A model generated the notes under the pieces. That model was given only the letters and a program-made list of their open reading frames with translations. It was not told where the DNA came from and made no database searches. Source: Zopfochytrium polystomum (lineage: Eukaryota > Chytridiomycota > Chytridiomycetes > Chytridiales > Chytridiaceae). From it: a stretch of DNA of 64,000 bases. Below, one piece after another: positions 13,069 through 63,976 of this stretch; positions within the stretch are counted from its first letter, which is position 1; every line of letters begins with the position of its first letter. The position numbers were made by a program, and so were the translations under genes. The stretch covers positions 89,438-153,437 of the forward strand of contig JAIVFJ010000158.1 in NCBI GenBank assembly GCA_025765615.1. Reading direction: 5' to 3'.

Positions 13069-13205
13069 TCTTCGCAGTTTGCGCAAAGCCGCGCACGACT
13101 GTTTGGTCTCTTTCGGTGTCGCCCTAATCGGGCAGGTGGGACCACCCAATTTCTCCATTTCTGCGTCGTCCTTTCTGTCGCTCTGTCTCCCTGTCTCACT
13201 GTCTC

Positions 13206-13244
13206 ACTCACACTCTGTCTCTCTCTCTCTCTAATCTCTCTCTC

Positions 13245-13321
<77 letters not shown>
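13206..13321. repeat. CT dinucleotide microsatellite
   Basis: More than 100 bases of almost pure CT just upstream of the second MFS gene. It gives spurious Leu/Ser or Arg/Glu frames on both strands. Confidence 0.9.
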
Positions 13322-13324
<3 letters not shown>

Positions 13325-13517
13325 GCTCTGACTGTCTGTCTCTGCCCCACAATCCCTGAAAGGGATGGGATGCTTCCATTGCCTTTTTTTCTCCCTGTCT
13401 CATCCTCCAACTCCGCCTTCCAAACACGTCGGCCACGTCTCCGCCACACTCCAGCACCCACTACGCACGACCCCGGAGACCCGCCTGACAAAAAACCCAA
13501 CCAGCACTCTACCCATA

Positions 13518-19849: not shown

Positions 19850-20992
19850 GGACCACTCCTCGTTTCCCCGCCCCGCAGATTTTGGGTTGGTCAGTCCTGG
19901 CGCGCCCTCGTGCATGTGTTTGTGCTTTATGTTCGACTGTAAATGTAGTTTCGTCGCCTGGTAAGTCCATTTACAGAAACTGGGACGTTATGTTGTCTTA
20001 CACAGACGCACAGGGAGTTTTTTAGATGTGGAGCCTCGATGACTCGGTTGTGGGACTTGTGGATGCAGTGGTCCAGCAAAAAAAAAAAATAAAAAAAATA
20101 AAAGAAGATATCAGCACCCAAGATTGCTTTTGCTTTCGTCTTTGGGAGATTTTGAAGTTGTCGTCGGGCCGAAGACTTTCTGTGTGAAATACGTGACTGT
20201 TTGTTTGTTCCAGTTACTACAGCTTCACGTCGAAGCGTTTTAGAAAACATCGAAATTTCTAAACGAAACCCAGAGGTTCAGCCAACATGAATTTTTTGTT
20301 ATGTTTTCTTCTCTTCTTTCCAGTCCCACCCGCTTTCAGTTCATCAGAAACCCTACCGCATAATTGTTTTACTTTTTGAAGGAAGTGCAACCGTTCTGAA
20401 CTGGCTGTTTACTGTGGGAAGGACTTTTCAACAGGGATGAAGTGAGGCAAAGCTGGGTTTTGTCACAATTATTAAAAATAACTGTGTGCTTGCAGGTACG
20501 TGCGGTCGTCTGTTTATCTGTTAATGTCCGCGGAGCATGATGGAGAGGCGAACTTTGTTGAGCGATGCGCGGAACAAGGTGCCTATCGTATCTTTGTGAT
20601 GGAGGAGAAAGAGGAGCAGAAGTAGGAGGAGCAGGTAGGGGAGGTGCCGTTGCTGTTTCTGCCCTTCGCCAAAAAACAAAAGAGGCCTTCAGCTTGACTA
20701 GCTGCACCAACGCGAGATGCTAGCTCCTGCCTCGTCAAGAGAGCCGCAAGTTGCTCCCCCCACGTATTATGTAATAAATGGGGAGTTACATAATTCTGTA
20801 AAGTGAAGAGAATAATCTTGAACTCCCTGCTGCGTACGTGGCAGGTGTTTATGTATGTTATATTGAGGAGTCGGCTCCTCGGGTTTCCAACTCGCTGTGT
20901 GCGTCTTCATAGAAGATTCTGTTTCTGGTTTTTTTTGTTCTAGGTTTGGTTCTGTCGCGTGTCTCTCCCTCACTCTCCCTCACTCTCTCCCT

Positions 20993-21005
20993 CTCTCTCG
21001 GCTGC

Positions 21006-21038
<33 letters not shown>

Positions 21039-21064
21039 TCTCTCGCTCTCTCTATCTCTCGCTC

Positions 21065-21136
<72 letters not shown>

Positions 21137-21160
21137 TCTCTCTGTCCCTCTTTCTGTCTC
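20993..21160. repeat. CT microsatellite
   Basis: Long CT array with scattered CG and AT interruptions. The interval 19850-21711 otherwise shows no supportable gene. An AC/CT compound repeat follows at 21381-21434. Confidence 0.9.
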
Positions 21161-21376
21161 TCACAGAAGCGGATTTGTCATTGATTTGTCATGCGAATTG
21201 CGGGTTGGATGCGGTTCGCGTCGAAGACAGCCGGAATGTTTTCTTCCTTTTTCTTTCAGGGGGAGACACCAACGGGGTGTCTTCGGCTTCCCTTTCCAGT
21301 CGTCTCTCTCTGTCTGGATAGTGCTTTCCCCCTGTCTAACAATCATCCATGTCTTCGCCATCTTGCTCTCATCTCT

Positions 21377-25202: not shown

Positions 25203-25503
25203 TGTCAGGAACATGGCAGGACAGGGCATGGCAGACAAGGAACTGAGAGGAGAGAGGAGTGATGATTGTATTGTAAACAATAATTCACTTGAGGGATGGG
25301 ACAGGTCCCCCATCCCCCCTTTTACACCTTTTGAGAGTCAAGACTCAAAGAAAGTTCCAGAAAGAACAATTGGTAATAAAATGATAGCAATGATACTAAC
25401 AAGACAAGTCAGGAAAGCAAAGAAGGTTCCAGAAAGTCCAACAAGGTTCCATGAATGAATGTTCAAGAAGGTTCCAGAACGTTCCAGAGGGTGATTCATA
25501 ACA
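25203..25503 (-). mobile_element. Solo LTR, heat-shock-element LTR family, copy 1
   Basis: Reverse-complement copy of the TGTTATGAATCACCC...GTTCCTGACA LTR. It is flanked by the 5-bp duplication GCAAA on both sides. Diverged: the GAA/TTC array is partly decayed. It sits at the outer end of the left arm of a large inverted repeat. Confidence 0.9.
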
Positions 25504-33089: not shown

Positions 33090-33998
33090 TGTCTCTGTGA
33101 TAGACTCCAGGAGCTGGCTGCCACGGACCACTCAGTCGCAATTGATCTAACCTCTGCCAGGCAGGAGCAGCTTGCAGCCGGGGCCTGCAGCGAGGACATC
33201 CCTGCATTTGGTGATGCTGACCTGGACCAAGAGATTGGATGGTTGCTACTGGCCTCGCTCCCAGGGCTCTCAATGCGCCAGTGGACCCTGGCCTGATGGA
33301 TGTTCCTGTCGACCCTGACTACGACTAGGCTCTGCACCGACGTCGCTTTACCCAAGAGCAGCTTGAGACTGGCCTGACCATTGTTGAGGACTGCAAGAGG
33401 CTGCAAGTCAATGCCCCGCTCTTGCCTGGCCCAGCAGCAGATGTAGCACTGCCAGCTGTGACAGCTGACAGCCTTGACGATGTACAGAGGCAGGTGTATG
33501 CCTGCATTGTTGAAAACGTCCAGTGCAGCAGGCAGGTGCTATTCATCCAGAAAGGCACGGCTGGGACTGGCAAGTCTCGCGCCATCTCTGGCGCACTGGA
33601 GCCAGAGGAGGTGCTGTGTGCAGCCTTCACTGCCAAGGCTGCCTTTGTGATAGGCGGCACCACCTTGCACTTGCTTCTCAGCATCAGGTCCAGGTGGTCG
33701 TTGCTCAGAGGCGGGAGCCTCCAGGCCCTGCAGGAGGCCTTCAGGCCTGCAAAGTTCCTCATCGTCGACAAGTACTCAATGGTGAGCACAGAGATGCTCA
33801 GCAAGATTGACACCAGTCTCAAGCAGGCCTTTCTCTCCAACGTGCCTTTTGGTGGCCAGTCAGTGCTGCTTGTGGTGACCAGGCCAGATCCCCCCCTGTT
33901 GCTGAGACTCCCCTCTACAACTCTGCTGCTGCAACCAGCGCCATGGGCAGGGCAGGACACCTTGCCTTTCAGCACTTTCGCCTGACTACAAGGCTTGT
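33090..33998 (+). pseudogene. PIF1-type (Helitron) helicase, N-terminal helicase motifs
   Basis: From about 33340 to 33890 the frame shows DSLDDVQRQVY, Walker A GTAGTGKSR, motif Ia AAFTAKAAF and motif II in FLIVDKYSMVS. The usual DE of motif II is DK, so the ATPase Glu is lost. The helicase resumes at 35434 after a 1.4-kb insertion. Confidence 0.8.
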
Positions 33999-35433
33999 GT
34001 GAGACTACACTGAGGTCTCAGTGATAAAGTCTAGGGATTTTATTCGCAAAAACAAGCGTACCTGTCATAAAACTGCAAGGATCGGGACCCTATTATTGCT
34101 CCCGGTTCTTTAGTTTCCAAGGTGTTATCAAAGTGTATTTGCGGCTAACCCGTCTTTATTATTGGGCCTGCTTTTACTACTTTCGTCTTAACAGTTTCCG
34201 TTGCGCCAGGGTTTTCTCAACATATTTTCTTTTTCGGTGACTAACAGAGACTGCCCAACTGCCTACGGATGGGGTGCCTGACAGGCCGTACCCCAAGCCC
34301 GCCTAATTTATTATTATTTTCGGCACTTGTACATATACGCATAGGGTTGGGGGGACTTAGAGCATTTGTGGTGGATGCTCCAAGTCAGGGGGGTTGACTT
34401 GTCAATTTTCTCTCTCTCTGTTTTTGGGCCATTTCTCTTTTTCCTTTTTTTCTTCAATCTGATTTCTGTCCATTGGCACCAATACAGAGTCCCTTCAAAT
34501 CCATCTGGCTCACAAAGGTGAGGGTAGTGAGAGATGGTACACACCCAGGTGTGTACATGGTCCCTTTGTGGGGCTCCTCTTAAGGGGCCATGGGTGGGGA
34601 ATGCAGCTGGCCCCACCAGCGACTGTGTGACATTGCTGGCTCTGTGTTGGAGTGAGGATCCCTGGCGCTTGCCTGCCACAACGACAGTGGTGGTGGTGGT
34701 GACGACGACAGCGTCGTCGTCCCCAACCTTCCCGTCCCTGCAAGGGTGTTGGTGGCTGCACCCGCCCCGACACCTGAGAGCTCGATCTACAAGCACCTGC
34801 TTCGGTCCTATTGCTGTGAGGGTGAGATGTGTGAGTACGAGTGTGATGCGATAAAGCCCGTTGGTTGAGTGATTGTGCCAACGCAGCCCAGCGGGGTGCG
34901 TGTACGATTGCAGGTGTTTCTGCATGTGAGTTCCCTGCTGGCGACCTTCTGACCCCTACATAGTCGACTCCCTTCTCTCCCCCCCCCGTTGCTGGCAACA
35001 ACGAGGGCTCCCGCAGCACCATCTGCGACAAGGGGCGCTAGGTCGCGCCCTGTCTGTCCCGTTGCTATTAACCGCTCCCGTTGTATTTGAGATTAGGTTC
35101 CTGAGATAAAAACCCCCATTTCCCTCTTCTCTCTCTTTATTCTGCAGTTGTGTTGCACCCTCAGGTGTGCCCTTCCGTTTCCCCTTGCATTGGCCTGCAG
35201 CCACTCGAGTAATCGGTGCTCTGGCACTGATCCTTCAGAGGATTGTCCCTCTGAATGTTCATTCTTTGTGTTTGAGACCCCTGTTAGACAGATCAGTAGG
35301 GATACTTCATGGACTAGGCAAGTAGTAGGGTTGAAACACCCCCTAGACAACAGCCCAATAAAGTTAGTTTTAGCCTATTATTTGCTTTCCCTCACTCAGG
35401 GGCCCAGATCCCAGGGTCAAAGGAGTGAGTATA
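33999..35433 (+). mobile_element. Insertion with TGTGAGACT...AGTCTCACA ends, inside the helicase
   Basis: The left end TGTGAGACTACACTG and right end TATAGTCTCACA are inverted. The helicase reads through when the segment is removed, and CTTG is duplicated at the ends. The last 350 bases (TGTATTTGAGAT to CTCACA, with ATAAAAACCCC and AATAAAG signals) recur at 56206-56570, so the right part behaves like an LTR. No coding region recognised inside. Confidence 0.65.
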
Positions 35434-35887
35434 GTCTCACACTTGTCCAGGTGCTCCAGCAGCAGGTTGCTGCCAACGACCACAACCAGGCCATCTTTGT
35501 GCAGATCTTGGCGGGCCTCAGCGATGTAACATGACCATGGACCAGTGGAGGTTTCTGATGAACACCTGCAGCAATGAGCATGCCCAGGCAAGCCAGGCTC
35601 CATTCCGCTTTGCCCTTGCCCCCCATCTCTTCTTTGCAAACAAGGATGTCCAAGCACATAACTGTGCCAGACTCAGAGCCTTCAGTTCTCCTGTTGCTCA
35701 CATTTCTGCCCACAACGTGCCTCAGCGCGCCAAAGGGCTGAGCCTGGATGCCTTTGGGGGCTTGGAGAATGTAATCTACCTTGCAGTTGCCGCAAGGGTC
35801 TGTCTGACCAACAACATATGGAAGGCAGCAGGCTTGAATAACAGTGCTGGAGGTACAGTTGCTGATCTTGTCTTTGGCACCCAGGAT
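35434..35887 (+). pseudogene. PIF1/Helitron helicase, middle part
   Basis: Frame from 35434 shows LVQVLQQQVAAN and, after a frame change near 35530, DQWRFLMNTC, HLFFANKDVQAHN, VICL-like AARVCLTNNIWKAAGL and GTVADLVFG. These match the PIF1/Helitron block order. It is cut by solo LTR copy 2. Confidence 0.8.
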
Positions 35888-36240
35888 TGTTATGAATCAC
35901 CCTCTGGAAACCTCTGGAACCTCCTAGAACATTCCTTCATGGAACCTTCTGGAACCTTCTGGAACCTTCTGGAACCTTCTAGAACATTCCTTCATGGAAC
36001 CTTGTGGAACCTTCTTTGCTTTCCTGACTTGTCTTGTTGTCATTGTTATCATTGGTATCATTGTATTACTAATTGCTCTTTCTGGAACTTTCTTTGAGTC
36101 TTGACAAGGAAGACTCTCAAAAGGTATAAAAGGGGGATGGGGGACCTGTCTCATCCCTCAAGTGAATTATTGTTTCCAATACAATCATCACTCCTTTCAG
36201 TTCCTTGTCTGCCTTGTCCTGTCCTGCCCTGTTCCTGACA
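35888..36240 (+). mobile_element. Solo LTR, heat-shock-element family, copy 2 (expanded array)
   Basis: TGTTATGAATCACCC to GTTCCTGACA, 353 bp, flanked by perfect duplication AGGAT. The GAA/TTC array at 35942-35989 has ten consecutive perfect units. TATAAAAGGGGG box at about 36124. Confidence 0.95.
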
Positions 36241-36301: not shown

Positions 36302-36609
36302 TGTCAGGAACATGGCTGGACAAGGCAAGGCAGACAAGGAACTGAAAGGAGTGATGATTGTATTGGAAACAATAATTCACTTGAGGGATGAGACAGGTCC
36401 CCCATCCCCCTTTTATACCTTTTGAGAGTCTTCCTTGTCAAGACTCAAAGAAAGTTCCAGAAAGAGTAATTAGTAATACAATGATACCAATGATAACAAT
36501 GACAACAAGACAAGTCAGGAAAGCAAAGAAGGTTCGAGAAGGTTCCACAAGGTTCCATGAAGGAATGTTCTAGAAGGTTCCAGAGGTTTCCAGAGGGTGA
36601 TTCATAACA
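36302..36609 (-). mobile_element. Solo LTR, heat-shock-element family, copy 3 (inverted)
   Basis: Reverse orientation, 308 bp, flanked by perfect CCCTT duplication. With copy 2 it forms an inverted pair with a 61-bp spacer. Confidence 0.95.
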
Positions 36610-51316: not shown

Positions 51317-52264
<948 letters not shown>

Positions 52265-52830: not shown

Positions 52831-53134
52831 CATGTGAGACTGTGCTCTCTAAATCTCCTCACCCTGGGCTGGAGGTGGAAATAGAGCAATGGCCTAAATA
52901 CCAATCCTATCTAATGAAAGGGCAAAAGGTGTCTAGGGGTCACCAGACAGGAAAATGTATTTGGAGTCTACTAAAGCCCATCATCAAACACAAAAGAAAC
53001 TCTTTAAACACAAAAAAAAGAGCAGTTATCACAGATCTAAAAGGGAAACATAAGAAAAGTGTGACAAAGGTGGCACAATCACAAAAGAAAGTGCAAAATG
53101 CCTCTGGTCCAAGACACAGTGTTTGCTCAACTGC

Positions 53135-53442
53135 TGTTATGAATCACCCTCTGGAAACCTCTGGAACCTTCTAGAACATTCCTTCATGGAACCTTGTGGA
53201 ACCTTCTGGAACCTTCTTTGCTTTCCTGACTTCTCTTGTTGTCATTGGTATCATTGGTATCATTGTATTACTAATTGCTCTTTCTGGAACTTTCTTTGAG
53301 TCTTGACAAGGAAGACTCTCAAAAGGTATAAAAGGGGGATGGGGGACCTGTCCCATCCCTCAAGTGAATTATTGTTTCCAATACAATCATCACTCCTCTC
53401 AGTCCCTTGTCTGCCTTGCCCTGTCCTGCCATGTTCCTGACA
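53135..53442 (+). mobile_element. 5' LTR of nested chromovirus-like element (heat-shock LTR, copy 4)
   Basis: 308 bp, TG...CA ends. GAA/TTC units at 53164-53181 (four perfect) and 53189-53216 (six, one mismatch). TATA box at 53327. Left target duplication ACTGC ends at 53134. Confidence 0.95.
53164..53216 (+). promoter_or_regulatory. Heat-shock element array upstream of TATA
   Basis: Alternating GAA and TTC pentamers at 5-nt spacing: GAA-TTC-GAA-TTC, then GAA-TTg-GAA-TTC-GAA-TTC. This is the classical heat-shock-factor binding pattern, about 110-160 bp upstream of TATAAAA at 53327. Confidence 0.75.
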
Positions 53443-53482
53443 TCATAATTCACTTCACCCTCTCCTACTACTCTCTGCCATC

Positions 53483-54406
53483 ATGTCTGACCCAAACAAC
53501 ACCTTCCCTGATGCAACTGCCTTCCAAGCCTTGATGGACCAATTACAAGCCCTCTCAAGACAGACACACCAACTTCAAGAACAAGTCCTTCACCAGCAGC
53601 ACCAGCTTCAACAACAACTTCACCAACAAGAACATCAAGCTCTTCCCCTGCCTCAAGCCAACCAAGCAAGAGAGCCCAAGGTTCCCAGCCCTGACAAGTT
53701 CACTGGGCTGGCCAAAGACCTTAGGAACTTCATGGCCACTGTGGAGAATGTCATCCTTCTCCAACCTTCAAGATTTCCAAGTGAGCAAGTCAAGGTTCTT
53801 TTCACAAGCACCCTCCTGTCTGGTCAAGCTCAATCATGGTACAGATCTCTCCCAAGCACACCCACCACCCTGCAAGAGCTCTGGGAGGGGCTGGAAGCTA
53901 CCTTTGGTGACCCCTACGCATCTTGGACAGCAAGATCCAAGCTCAAGCATATCAAGCAAGGAAAGCAATCTTGTGTGGCCTACACCAACCAATTCAAGCA
54001 ACTAGCCAGAGACTCTGGATACAATGATGCAGCTCTGATGGAGCTGTACCATGATGGTCTCCATGAGTCCATCCAAGACATGCTCTCCCAGTCTCTGCAC
54101 ATCCCTGAGACCTTGGAAGAGTACATTCTCCTTGCCATCAAGATTGACAACAGACTCTACTCCAAGAGGCTGAAGCAAAGACAAGTAGGAACTACATCAA
54201 GACCTACCCCAGTCCCTCAAGCTCTTACAGTTCCTGAACCCATGCAAGTGGATGCAGTTGAGACACTTCCTAAGGGTCCTCTGAGCCAAGAGGAGAAAAC
54301 AAGGAGGGCCCAGCAGGGACTGTGTTTTTACTGTGGCTCCAAGGAGCATGCTGTCAAGGACTGCCCAAGGAAGAAGCACCCAAACTCCCAGGTCCAGGCT
54401 CACTGA
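53483..54406 (+). CDS. Gag protein of chromovirus-like element
   Basis: Intact 307-codon frame starting ATG 53483. Gln-rich N-terminal coiled coil, then a Ty3/gypsy retrotrans-gag core (PDKFTG, FTSTLLSGQAQSWYRSL, LWEGLEATFGDP), and a zinc knuckle CFYCGSKEHAVKDC at the C-terminus. No stop interrupts it. CpG is nearly absent. A complete gag with complete LTRs suggests it could package and be mobilised if partner enzymes exist elsewhere. Confidence 0.9.
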   Translation: MSDPNNTFPDATAFQALMDQLQALSRQTHQLQEQVLHQQHQLQQQLHQQEHQALPLPQANQAREPKVPSPDKFTGLAKDLRNFMATVENVILLQPSRFPSEQVKVLFTSTLLSGQAQSWYRSLPSTPTTLQELWEGLEATFGDPYASWTARSKLKHIKQGKQSCVAYTNQFKQLARDSGYNDAALMELYHDGLHESIQDMLSQSLHIPETLEEYILLAIKIDNRLYSKRLKQRQVGTTSRPTPVPQALTVPEPMQVDAVETLPKGPLSQEEKTRRAQQGLCFYCGSKEHAVKDCPRKKHPNSQVQAH

Positions 54407-55857
54407 GGGGCAATTCCCTGGACCCTCCTCCAAGCTGCCCCTGTTTCATTACCACCACCAGCACCACAAACACCTCAGATTCCAAGCCCCACCAACTCAC
54501 CATGGATGTCAAGATTCAACTCTCACCCAAGTCAATTATTATAACCAAGGCCCTTATAGACTCTGGATCATCCTGCAACATCATTGATGCCACCCTTGCC
54601 AAGTCTTGTGCCATTCCTACGATCAAGAAATCCACACCCCTCAAGGTCCACTTTGCCAATCATGCTCTGTTCAAGGAAATCAGCCATGAAACCAAGCTAA
54701 ACCTCCACATCCAAGACTTTCCACCATCCATGGTCAATCTGGAAGTATTGGATCTTGGCTCACCCACATTCTCTGTCATCCTGGGATTACCATGGCTGCA
54801 AGCCCAGAACCCTGCCATTGATTGGGTCACTGGTCAAGTCCAACCTCCACCAATCGGAACAGTCACCCAAAACTCAAGTCAAGCCCCCAAGTCTCATGCT
54901 CTCAAGCCCTTGATTCAAGATTCACAGCCAGCCAAGACTCAAGTTCCACAGTTCACAGTTCACAGTCAAGATTCAAGTAGAGCTCATAGAGCTCACAGTC
55001 ATGGCCATGACTCTTGTTCACAGAACCCACAGTCAAAGATTCAAGTACCACAGTTCACAGTCCACATTCAAGATTCAAGCTCCACAGCTCACAGTCTTTG
55101 CCAAGAACAGAACCCTCAGTCAAAGATTCAAGAATCACAGTTCCCAGTCAAGAATTCAAGCCCCACTGCTGATGAGCACAGAAGGACAGACCTTGCACCT
55201 GAAGGGGGAGATGGTTTCACCCCACCATCCAAGACACACCTTTCACTGCTTCCTGACAGTGTGTGGGCCCATGCTATTTCCAAGGACCCCAAGCCTCACA
55301 AGATTCAAATCAGCCAAGAAGAGGAAAAACTTGAGATACTCAAGACAAGGCATGTTGCAGCAACAGCTGGACACCCAGGAGAGCACAAGACATATGAGCT
55401 TGCTTCCAGAGACTTTTACTGGCCAGGCATGAGGAAGAACTTGCAGTCCAAAAGACCAAGTCCCAAGCTAGACAACCTCAAGTTGAGACCTTTCAAGATC
55501 TTGGAGCAAATCAATCCAGTCACCTTCAAGCTGGATCTCCCTGCATCCATGAAGATCCACCCAGTTTTCCATGTCAGCCTTTTGGAGAAGTTTGTGGCCA
55601 ATTCCATTCCAGGCAGAGTTGTTCCTCCTCCTCCTCCAGTTGAGGTAGAAGGTGAAGAGGAATTTGAGGTTGAACAAATCTTGGATGCCAAGTGGTTTGG
55701 AAGGACACTCAAGTTCCTTGTTAAGTGGAAAGGTTACTCAGATGCTGACAACACCTGGGAACCTGAGTCAAACCTCACTCACTGCCAAGACCTTCTGCTC
55801 AAGTTCAAGACCAGGTACCCCACCAAGTTGCAGAAGAGGCCTAAAAGGGGGAGATGA
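54322..55857 (+). CDS. Pol-remnant polyprotein: protease, integrase zinc-finger remnant, chromodomain; no RT
   Basis: Open frame overlapping gag by about 80 bases in the -1 frame; an internal ATG lies at 54502. It shows an aspartic-protease site (LIDSGSSCNIID), then repetitive SQ/HSQ-rich sequence. An HVAATAGHPGEHKTYELASRDFYWPGM segment equals the integrase HHCC domain start, fused directly to an integrase C-terminal segment (LKLRPFKILEQI...) and a chromodomain (KWFGRTLKFLVKWKGYSDADNTWEPESNL). Reverse transcriptase, RNase H and the integrase core are missing although the frame is open. This is a deletion derivative. Confidence 0.85.
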   Translation: MFLLWLQGACCQGLPKEEAPKLPGPGSLRGNSLDPPPSCPCFITTTSTTNTSDSKPHQLTMDVKIQLSPKSIIITKALIDSGSSCNIIDATLAKSCAIPTIKKSTPLKVHFANHALFKEISHETKLNLHIQDFPPSMVNLEVLDLGSPTFSVILGLPWLQAQNPAIDWVTGQVQPPPIGTVTQNSSQAPKSHALKPLIQDSQPAKTQVPQFTVHSQDSSRAHRAHSHGHDSCSQNPQSKIQVPQFTVHIQDSSSTAHSLCQEQNPQSKIQESQFPVKNSSPTADEHRRTDLAPEGGDGFTPPSKTHLSLLPDSVWAHAISKDPKPHKIQISQEEEKLEILKTRHVAATAGHPGEHKTYELASRDFYWPGMRKNLQSKRPSPKLDNLKLRPFKILEQINPVTFKLDLPASMKIHPVFHVSLLEKFVANSIPGRVVPPPPPVEVEGEEEFEVEQILDAKWFGRTLKFLVKWKGYSDADNTWEPESNLTHCQDLLLKFKTRYPTKLQKRPKRGR

Positions 55858-56165
55858 TGTTATGAATCACCCTCTGGAAACCTCTGGAACCTTCTAGAAC
55901 ATTCCTTCATGGAACCTTGTGGAACCTTCTGGAACCTTCTTTGCTTTCCTGACTTCTCTTGTTGTCATTGGTATCATTGGTATCATTGTATTACTAATTG
56001 CTCTTTCTGGAACTTTCTTTGAGTCTTGACAAGGAAGACTCTCAAAAGGTATAAAAGGGGGATGGGGGACCTGTCCCATCCCTCAAGTGAATTATTGTTT
56101 CCAATACAATCATCACTCCTCTCAGTCCCTTGTCTGCCTTGCCCTGTCCTGCCATGTTCCTGACA
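55858..56165 (+). mobile_element. 3' LTR of the nested element (copy 5)
   Basis: 308 bp, matching the 5' LTR base for base as far as I compared. Preceded by a purine tract (AAAAGGGGGAGATGA). The right target duplication ACTGC follows at 56166. Confidence 0.95.
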
Positions 56166-56570
56166 ACTGCTGGCATAGGGCTTCCTTGCTCAGTGGTTAG
56201 AGAGTTGTATTTGAGATTTGGTTCCTGAGATAAAAACCCCCATTTCCCTCTTCTCTCTCTTTATTCTGTGGTTGTGTTGCGCCCTCGGGAGTGCCCTTCC
56301 ATTTCCCCTCGCATCAGCCCACAGCCACACGAGTAATCGGTGCCTGGCACCGATCCTTCAGAGGATTGTCCCTCTAAATGTTCATTCTTTGTGTTTGAGA
56401 CCCCTGTTAGAAAGATCAGTAGGGATACTTCATGGACTAGGCAAGTAGTAGGGTTGAAACACCCCCTAGACAACAGCCCAATAAAGTTAGTTTTAGCCTA
56501 TTATTTGCTTTCCCTCACTCTAGGGCCCAGATCCCAGGGTCAAAGGAGTGAGTATAGTCTCACACAACTC

Positions 56571-61049: not shown

Positions 61050-63656
61050 TACCCTTTGATCTTTCCCTGCAGTGATCAAGGCTGGGTGCACGGCATTGCT
61101 AAAATTGGACCACCGACTGGACAGGATCAGGACAGGACTGAGGTGTCGGCACTGGGTGGTCAGGGTGGTGCCCATGGTGGAGGAGTCTGATGATTGAGCT
61201 CCTGGGGATGCCTATGGAGCTGCAGCAGATGATGCAGATCCTGAGGAGGATATTGATGTGGAGGCAGATTCTGAGAATGGCTTTGATTTAGACAATGCCA
61301 GCAGTGACAGTGGGGACGGGAGGGTGAGGAGGAGGACAACTGTTACAATGTCCCAGTACTACCACTACCAGCTCATGTTCAGGCTGGGATCTCACATACA
61401 CCTGTACAGGAAGCTATTTCAGCAGCTGATTGTGGATGTCTATGTCAGTGTGGACTCAAACCAACTAAGTTGCATCTGCCACAACCAGAAATGGTTGAGG
61501 GCTGCAGATTATCATGGATTGCATGATGCCTTCAGGTCAGACGTGACAAACCCTCTTCAGGTGGGGAAGCGGGTGGTTCTCCCTTCCAGCTTCCCTGGGT
61601 CCCCACGCTTCATGCAGCAGCAGTACCAGGATGCAATGAGCATTGCACAAAGTATGGCAAACCAACTCTATTCATCACCTTCACATGCAACCCAAAGTAG
61701 ACAGAGATCACAAGCAACCTGCTTCCTGGGCAGAGTGCTGTTGACAGGCCTGACTTGGTGTCGCAAGTGTTCAACCTGAAGCTGAAGAGTGTGCAGGAGG
61801 ATTTGAAAACCTGCTTTGGCAAGCAGGTTGCAGTGGTTTGGGTGGTCAAGTTTCAAAAGCGTGGCTTGGCCCATGCCCACATTGCCTCCTGGCTGGACCC
61901 CAGCGACACACCTGAGACCCAGACAACTATGATAGATTTGTGAGTGCAGAGCTGCCTGGCCCTCAGCTGGATCCAGAGCTGTACAGGATTGTCAGGGACC
62001 ATGATTCACTCTTGCTCTGACCAATGCAAACTTGCTGGTGCCACAAAGTGCACAATGGGGTATCCCAAGCTGTGGGTTGATCAGACCCAGGTGTAGCCTG
62101 AAGGAGGCATCAAGTACTGGTGCAGGAACGATGGACAGCATTTCACCCTCCCAAGTGGCTTTGAAGTTGACAACCAGTGGGTGGTTGCATTCAACCAGTA
62201 TCTGTCCAGAAAGTACCAGGCGTACAACAATGTGGAGATTTGCGCCACCATAAGGCCATCAAATACCTCATGAAATACTTGCACAAGGGCCATGACAGAG
62301 CAAGGGTGGCAGTTGGCTCTGGAGAAGCCACTGTTTGCGTGGATGAGATTGACGACTTCCTTGATGCCTGCTACAGGAGGCTTGCTGGATGGTCTTCCAG
62401 TTCCACATGATGCAAGGCCAGATACTGTCAGTCACAAGATTGGCTGTGCATCTCCCTGATCAGCAGTTGGTTTACTTTGACAAGGATGCTGATCTTGGGG
62501 AAGTTGCAGCCCTTCAAAAAGACTCCAAGCTTCTTGCTTTCTTCAGCCTGAACGAGTGCGACCTGATGCAAGGCAGTGGTTGTACTTTGAAATTCCTGAG
62601 CACTATGCATGGATCCAGAGGCATGCCAGGTGGACAAAGCGTAGGAGTCAGCAGGCTGCAGCAACCATTGGAAGGATGTATGCAGCAGGCCCTCAGGACA
62701 TTGAGCGGTATTTTCTCCACCTTCTCCTGGCCAATGTCAGAGGCCCTACCTCATTTGAGCACCTCAGGACTGTGGAAGGGACCACTTTTGGAATGTTTCA
62801 GGAAGCCTGTGTGCAACATGGACTGACTGCTGACAATCGTGAGGCAGTTTGGTGCTTGAAGCAGGGTGTGCACATCAAAACTTTGGAGGCATGTCAGGAC
62901 GCTTGAGCTGAGAACCAACCAACATGAGGCTTGCCCAGGGAACTGCAAATAAGAATGCTGTCAACTATGCCTGATGGTTGGGCAACCTTGGCAGGGGAAC
63001 CTGCCGCAGTTTGACACTCAAGACAGGGCGCCCAATCATGCCATGGTCCCAGACTACATCAATACCCTCATCTTTCCTGCAAATAATGGCAGTCTTTGTG
63101 TGAGACAACTGTTTGAGGCAGTCTATGATAGCCTTGGTGCAGCGGTTCAGCATTCAGGGGAGGAATTTGCATCATACTTGGCAGACAGGTGTATTTTGGC
63201 TGCAAAGAATGACGTGGTTCATCTGTTTAATGAGTATGCAGTGCAGCAGCTTCCAGGAGATGCCCAAGTGCTGCTTTCAGCAGACACCCCAGTTGGAGAC
63301 GATGGAGGTGACGGACTTATCATCAGCACCAAGTTCCTAAACACCCTCAGCCCTCCCAGCCTGCCTCCCCACAGGCTAACTGTCAAAGTGGGAATGCCTC
63401 TGATCCTGCTTCACAACCTGACAGATGGACTCTGCAATGGGACACACCTCATCCTACGGGAAGTCCGCCCCAATGTGCTGCTCTGTGAAGTTGTTGTGGG
63501 CAGCAGGAAAGGAGAGAAAATCCTTCTTCCCTGAATCTCTGCAGCCCAGTGATTCAGGATTTCCCTTTGAGTTCACCAGAAAGCAATTTCCAGTTCCTTT
63601 GCAATGTCAATCAACAAGTCCCAAGGACAGATTTTGAAAAAGGTTGGACTGGATAA
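61050..63656 (+). pseudogene. Helitron RepHel remnant (Rep domain plus helicase C-part), multiple frameshifts
   Basis: Readable blocks: Helitron-like N domain (YYHYQLMFRL...RKLFQQLIVDVYV, then SSFPGSPRFMQQQYQDAMSI), Rep HUH motif GLAHAHIASW at about 61862, and tyrosine motif IKYLMKYLHKG at about 62253. The mid-region (YFEIPEHYAWIQRHARW) follows. After 62910 it jumps to late helicase blocks (FPANNGSL, RLTVKVGMPLILLHNL, SINKSQGQILKKVG). Helicase motifs I-III are missing. The Rep residues needed for nicking are present but in broken frames. Confidence 0.85.
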
Positions 63657-63678: not shown

Positions 63679-63976
63679 TGTTATGAATCACCCTCTGGAA
63701 ACCTCTGGAACCTTCTAGAACATTCCTTTATGGAACCTTGTGGAACCTTCTTTGCTTTCCTGACTTGTCTTATTGTCATTGGTATCATTGGTATCATTGT
63801 ATTACTAATTGCTCTTTCTGGAACTTTCTTTGAGTCTTGACAAGGAAGACTCTCAAAGGTATAAAAGGGGGATGGGGGGACCTGTCCCATCCCTCAAGTG
63901 AATTATTGTTTCCAATACAATCATCACTCCTCTCAGTTCCTTGTCTGCCTTGCCCTGTCCTGCCATGTTCCTGACA
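63679..63976 (+). mobile_element. Solo LTR, heat-shock family, copy 6, inside Helitron helicase
   Basis: 298 bp with perfect TGCAT duplication. It separates DVFVH from GQSYVA of the Helitron C-terminal motif, which resumes at 63977 to the right edge. Confidence 0.95.

Follow-up and report, generated by a model that had tools for sequence, protein, structure and literature searches.

The window analysed here, a stretch of 64,000 nucleotides from contig JAIVFJ010000158.1 of the chytrid Zopfochytrium polystomum, holds at positions 53135-56165 a long terminal repeat (LTR) retrotransposon whose LTRs carry arrays of heat-shock elements (HSEs), the alternating GAA and TTC units at 5-nt steps that form the binding pattern of heat-shock factor (HSF). 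The interpretation developed below is that this is a recently active, high-copy element with an HSE-array LTR promoter, predicted from its sequence to recruit the host HSF and probably switched on by heat or protein-damage stress. The element lies on the forward strand between the two copies of a 5-bp target-site duplication (TSD), ACTGC (53130-53134 and 56166-56170), and its two 308-bp LTRs, which start with TG and end with CA, are identical. Within the 5' LTR (53135-53442), two distal HSE blocks, GAA CTC GAA TTC GAA TTC (53154-53181) and GAA TTG GAA TTC GAA TTC (53189-53216), each close on four perfect units (53164-53181 and 53199-53216), the second ending 111 bp before the TATA box TATAAAA (53327-53333). 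A proximal HSE of three perfect units, TTCTGGAACTTTC (53282-53294), ends 33 bp before the TATA box; this extra element is absent from the first-pass annotation of the DNA. The sequence AAGTGAATTAT (53362-53372), 35 nt after the first T of TATAAAA, is the predicted transcript 5' end and self-primer, and the predicted primer-binding site (PBS), ATAATTCACTT (53445-53455), lies 2 nt past the LTR and is the exact reverse complement of 53362-53372.

The interior begins with a gag open reading frame of 307 aa (53483-54406) that contains a Retrotrans_gag domain and a weak CCHC knuckle under the Pfam cut-off. It is followed by a residual pol frame (54322-55857) with an aspartic protease, an integrase H2C2 zinc domain, a Tf2-1-like SH3 domain and a chromodomain, and a stretch containing the polypurine tract (55837-55857) precedes the 3' LTR (55858-56165), in which the same HSE blocks recur (perfect runs at 55887-55904, 55922-55939 and 56005-56017; TATA box at 56050). 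Reverse transcriptase (RT), RNase H and the integrase core gave no match in the scanned frames of this copy, which is not autonomous.

Four solo LTRs bring the number of LTRs in the window to six, each solo with its own 5-bp duplication. On the forward strand, the solo at 35888-36240 (TSD AGGAT) belongs to a 353-bp length class and has a ten-unit perfect run at 35942-35989, a proximal HSE at 36080-36092 and a TATA box at 36125, and the solo at 63679-63976 (TSD TGCAT) has perfect runs of four and three units. The reverse-strand solos are those at 36302-36609 (TSD AAGGG; perfect runs of four, four and three units) and at 25203-25503 (TSD TTTGC; ~87% identical; perfect runs of six, three and three units). 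The alternating GAA/TTC pattern that the first-pass annotation had described in the six LTRs is confirmed by nine perfect runs of at least four units, against 0.04 per dinucleotide shuffle (50 shuffles), and the ten-unit run that it reported is exact. Its count of four plus six units in copies 4 and 5 needs correction, as these are the two LTRs of the one element and each holds 4+4 perfect units, or 6+6 with one imperfect unit (CTC, TTG) per block. The placement of the array 110-160 bp upstream of TATAAAA agrees well with the commonest form of the LTR (163 to 111 bp), but the exact TATAAAA occurs in only five of the six window LTRs and is absent from the copy at 25203-25503.

The arrays are far in excess of chance throughout the assembly (80.2 Mb, 761 contigs). 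The six-unit perfect pattern has 2,188 matches (overlaps counted) and the four-unit pattern 7,339, compared with 0 and 10 for the reversed controls; since each pattern is its own reverse complement, counting forward matches already gives the number of places. Using 31 bases from the R region as an anchor (at most three mismatches), 2,203 LTR anchors were identified (1,086 + 1,117) and none with the reversed control. The LTR sample combines the window, the loci L003-L008 and 40 stretches out of 57 planned, which together gave 87 BLAST places. Sixty-two of these are complete LTRs, 51 of them distinct; the 25 places that did not cover the reference LTR end to end were excluded, and several of them look like expanded or truncated LTRs. 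Because the stretches were chosen among 100 listed anchors, all with 0 mismatches and on contigs C1-C8, and L003-L008 were those that matched the window LTR best, well-preserved copies are over-represented. All 62 complete LTRs have at least seven units in perfect runs of at least three (11 units in 34 LTRs, 19 in nine and 27 in two), while 3,100 shuffled LTRs have a mean of 0.03 such units and a maximum of 4.

Two other readings of the arrays were considered and rejected. Chance is ruled out by the window and LTR shuffles and the reversed-pattern controls. A general feature of the genome is ruled out among the matches listed (six-unit list, contigs C1-C5), where the three loci without an adjacent listed anchor (C3:472624, C3:677739 and C5:43355) all fall in the LTR family at 86-98% identity; the four-unit matches listed for C1 without a listed anchor occur as the 35-bp-spaced pairs typical of the LTR, as judged by spacing rather than by sequence.

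The geometry of the promoter region is nearly fixed across the 58 sampled LTRs with an exact TATAAAA. Perfect distal units from 163 to 111 bp upstream of it are the commonest form (33/58), the inner edge of the distal array stands at 111 bp in 49, and array growth is on the distal side. The proximal HSE is a perfect run in 57 of the 58 and ends 33 bp before the TATA box in 56 of those 57, and the distance from the first T of the TATA box to AAGTGAATTAT is 35 nt in 54. As a separate observation on the distribution of anchors, five at C6 360043-372757 are exactly 3,171 bp apart, apparently a head-to-tail array of LTR-internal units.

A full-length copy of the element, L038, encodes the 307-aa Gag and an overlapping open pol frame in which protease, RT, RNase H, integrase, SH3_Tf2-1 and chromodomain follow in order (scanned as two pieces). 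The Copia-type order, with integrase before RT, is not what is seen, as the integrase of L038 follows RNase H and the chromodomain stands at the end; judged by these domains, the element is a Ty3-type chromodomain LTR retrotransposon. Relatives of its Gag in the protein set amounted to 25 matches, the best with 68% identity over 79% of the query, and the 46 pattern matches in viral contigs included no relative. The PBS of tRNA-primed elements usually begins with TGG, a start that the site following the 5' LTR lacks. The exact complementarity of ATAATTCACTT to AAGTGAATTAT is the kind of signature that Tf1-type self-priming would leave and an independent prediction of the transcript start. The length of the 11/11-nt complement between PBS and LTR was matched by two of 5,000 shuffled PBS sequences, and among 2,399 interior 16-mers an 11-nt complement was reached only by the three containing the PBS itself (22 reached 10). 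Tf1-like self-priming is therefore putative, the 5' end itself being a predicted one. In Tf1 and Tj1 of the fission yeasts the PBS is reported to be complementary to the mRNA 5' end (PMC4600332), as is predicted here, and the chytrid element also has a Tf2-1-like SH3 domain and a chromodomain. We know of no HSE array in Tf1/Tj1 elements.

Relative to L038, the window copy has two internal deletions, with junctions near 55179/55180 and at 55430-55437, the first of which removed RT and the second the integrase core. L052 and L069 have the first junction and L047 spans both, and these three copies and the window copy have four different TSDs. Shared deletion junctions in four copies with four TSDs suggest a stepwise history, and the four appear to have been inserted separately, as members of a non-autonomous lineage. 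Another LTR pair, at C11 305475-308504, has the same 2,723-bp spacing.

The age of the family was gauged from 19 LTR pairs. In a first set of 12, seven pairs are identical, four differ at one site and one at three, and the identity of seven of the 12 indicates recent activity. A second set of seven pairs with unequal or partly matched LTRs, for three of which (L032, L045 and L063) partial matches were lengthened by hand to reach the LTR limits, has 1 to 16 differing sites. Matching 5-bp flanks border 12 of the 19 pairs (9/12 in the first set, 3/7 in the second) and all four window solo LTRs. By these measures the family includes many very young copies along with some that are older or rearranged. 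One apparent rearrangement involves the opposite copies L038 (C1 657934-664241) and L039 (C1 666669-672976), as the flanks AGCTA/GGTGC are found on one and reverse-complemented on the other, as would be left by inversion through recombination between opposite copies. The unequal LTRs of L039 (398 vs 308 bp) had been a candidate for evidence of slippage and were set aside for this reason, the exchanged flanks fitting an inversion. L041 is likewise without a matching TSD.

The host has HSF genes. The HSF DNA-binding domain has 14 matches in the genome (exons and near-duplicates counted separately); L010 and L011 are long open frames with the domain, and residues 10-101 of L011 align with a solved HSF2 domain (E 2.2e-26). 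Of 58 matches to HSP70, 12 loci were read. The site GAAnnNTCnnGAAnnTTC stands upstream of three distinct EEVD-ending HSP70 genes (the near-identical L020/L021, L026 and L027) with a score of 10 each; when the 500 bp upstream were shuffled 200 times, this score came up 0-1 times. The other eight HSP70 loci read have no upstream site that scores as high. The end of the site lies ~174-178 bp (L020/L021), 55 bp (L026) and 111 bp (L027) before a TATAA, with another TATAA upstream of the site in L026, which also contains GGAACATTCTGG, a sequence similar to the LTR units. L019 and L022-L024, which we take to be mitochondrial-type HSP70 loci, have HSE scores of 4-5, and of the three HDEL-ending loci two score 4 and the third, L025, has a score of 8 at a site farther away. 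Near-identical loci, L020 (C174) and L021 (C709) at 99.8% and L011 (C17) and L012 (C403) at 98-99%, suggest unmerged haplotypes or recent duplications, so that copy numbers taken from the assembly may be inflated.

In the mechanism that we propose, the distal arrays would be bound cooperatively by HSF trimers and the TATA promoter would be driven by the proximal HSE in the manner of HSP genes. A transcript beginning at AAGTGAATTAT would prime its own reverse transcription, and the element would re-insert during stress. Slippage or recombination in steps of 45 bp or 10 bp would enlarge the array from 11 units to 19 and then to 27, and copies with more units would bind more HSF.

Several observations weigh against this proposal, and rival readings were considered beside it. 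The first group concerns the array as a piece of DNA. Viewed simply as sequence, the distal blocks form a 10-bp tandem repeat, and they could represent a minisatellite (10-bp and 45-bp repeats) that was spread by slippage and copying, matches the HSE by chance and has no regulatory role. LTR lengths are in keeping with such a history: 36 of the 62 complete LTRs are 308 bp, eight are 353 bp and two are 398 bp (16 have other lengths), and main classes 45 bp apart are as expected from repeat slippage or recombination, while the two LTRs of L034, which has a matching TSD, differ from each other by 10 bp. Variable array sites in the 51 distinct LTRs make up 14 of 36 core positions and 13 of 20 spacer positions, a difference that is not significant (Fisher P = 0.09), and the array spacers are more variable than the remaining LTR regions. 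Against the minisatellite, the three-unit proximal HSE is separate and not repeated, keeps a near-constant place before the TATA box and is exact (TTCTGGAACTTTC) in 60 of the 62 complete LTRs, and the promoters of host HSP70 genes use the same motif. Further, of three alternative core alleles shared by at least two sequences, two complete a unit (CTC to TTC in 16/51, TTG to TTC in 5/47), though the third disrupts one (2/51). We consider an array devoid of regulatory function to be very improbable. The first-pass annotation had offered selection or slippage as the cause of array expansion; the size classes and L034 fit repeat slippage or recombination, the evidence for selection on the HSE motif is suggestive only, and the expansion requires none.

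The second group of observations concerns the host genes and the age of the copies. Perfect runs of at least three alternating units occur at none of the 12 HSP70 loci read. Each host site carries a single mismatch among its four units, so the LTR arrays differ from those of the host both in length and in perfection and could be bound without stress. For the fourth EEVD-ending gene, L028, the stretch read contains no comparable site (the best, 1,144 bp upstream of the match, scores 7), though the match does not include the first exon of the gene, which may be located elsewhere together with the promoter. Additionally, seven of the 19 LTR pairs are without matching TSDs and the second-set pairs have accumulated differences, so that not all copies are young. 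Since the LTR arrays exceed the host HSP70 sites in length and perfection, they might bind HSF as a constitutive or developmental enhancer, active in growth, sporulation or encystment, and not as a heat switch. The Helitrons of Caenorhabditis provide a precedent on both sides, as HSF-1 is reported to be bound already without heat shock and its binding to rise in heat shock (PMC6927752). With a near-perfect motif in the cytosolic HSP70 genes of the host as a further indication of a link to stress, we regard this alternative as unlikely, and activation by heat or protein damage as the probable role of the arrays.

A different role would be exerted by the LTRs on their host, either as a sink that titrates HSF or as new host promoters that put neighbouring genes under heat control. 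The 62 complete LTRs contain 800 units (~13 per LTR), which over 2,203 anchors extrapolates to roughly 28,000 units; given the bias of the sample towards well-preserved copies, this is an upper guess. Chromodomain elements often reside in silent chromatin, which counts against both a sink and a source of promoters. In worms, Helitron HSEs are reported to have rewired the heat-shock response (PMC6927752). As the main function of the chytrid LTRs, we judge such an effect improbable. A broader and more speculative version combines it with mobility, the retrotransposon having captured the heat-shock response of its host genome-wide: ~2,200 LTRs, each with about a dozen HSF units, would be the dominant HSF target of the genome, each heat episode would mobilise the element while the LTRs retuned HSF and neighbouring genes, and array length would serve as an evolving 'gain control'. 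This extension is put forward tentatively, as a possibility that we doubt more than we favour.

A close parallel is with ONSEN/COPIA78 and other heat-responsive COPIA elements of the Brassicaceae, for which heat activation and HSFA2 binding are reported (PMC3907296, PMC5059998). The chytrid element resembles them in having HSEs in the LTR, with adjacent units upstream of the promoter, in a larger array derived from a duplicated shorter motif, and in the expected use of the host HSF. It differs in being a Ty3/Gypsy element with a chromodomain, in having 7-27 perfect-run units per sampled LTR and in being known from its sequence. The comparison to ONSEN in the first-pass annotation consequently holds for the expected mode of action and not for the superfamily, and the element should act like ONSEN, although it belongs to a different superfamily, has a host from a different kingdom and carries much larger arrays. 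Among fungal LTR retrotransposons with putative LTR HSEs, TCN12 of Cryptococcus has one and TCN3 two, and mobility is raised at 37 C (PMC12810828); these are elements of the Dikarya with one or two HSEs, in contrast to the long arrays and ~2,200 LTRs of the chytrid family. The Helitrons of Caenorhabditis have likewise distributed dense clusters of tandem HSEs across a genome, with HSF-1 binding reported by chromatin immunoprecipitation sequencing, but they are DNA transposons and the clusters are not part of an LTR promoter (PMC6927752). DIRS-1 of Dictyostelium is reported to have a heat-shock promoter in its terminal repeats (PMC2685390), which are inverted, and is a DIRS-type element of an amoeba host. 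The literature, as covered by titles and the openings of abstracts, with most subscription papers outside this coverage, gave no account of such a heat-shock retrotransposon in a chytrid. Transcription of MAGGY in Magnaporthe is reportedly raised by heat.

Heat-shock activation of transposons through a host factor has been reported in plants and animals, and a 2026 paper states that activation via host machinery 'remains undescribed in fungi' (PMC12810828). The chytrid family offers a way into this question, being abundant and partly very young, with a predicted start site and with LTRs that are much alike yet range from 7 to 27 HSE units. The variation in array size is a ready dose series for asking if transcription and copy number increase with the number of HSF sites, and the family also allows one to ask whether warming drives transposition in zoosporic fungi.

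The window holds further features besides the element and its LTRs. A 222-bp direct repeat, 98% identical between its copies at 35221-35442 and 56344-56565, is located near LTR insertions and outside the LTR itself. Pieces of a PIF1-like helicase (PF05970; Pif1 2B domain) at 33422-33982 and 62974-63531 possibly derive from Helitron-type transposons. Long imperfect repeats with copies 8-12 bp apart occur at 13161-13367, 20935-21171 and 51730-51918; to judge by the frames as translated, the first two are tracts of the (CT)n type.

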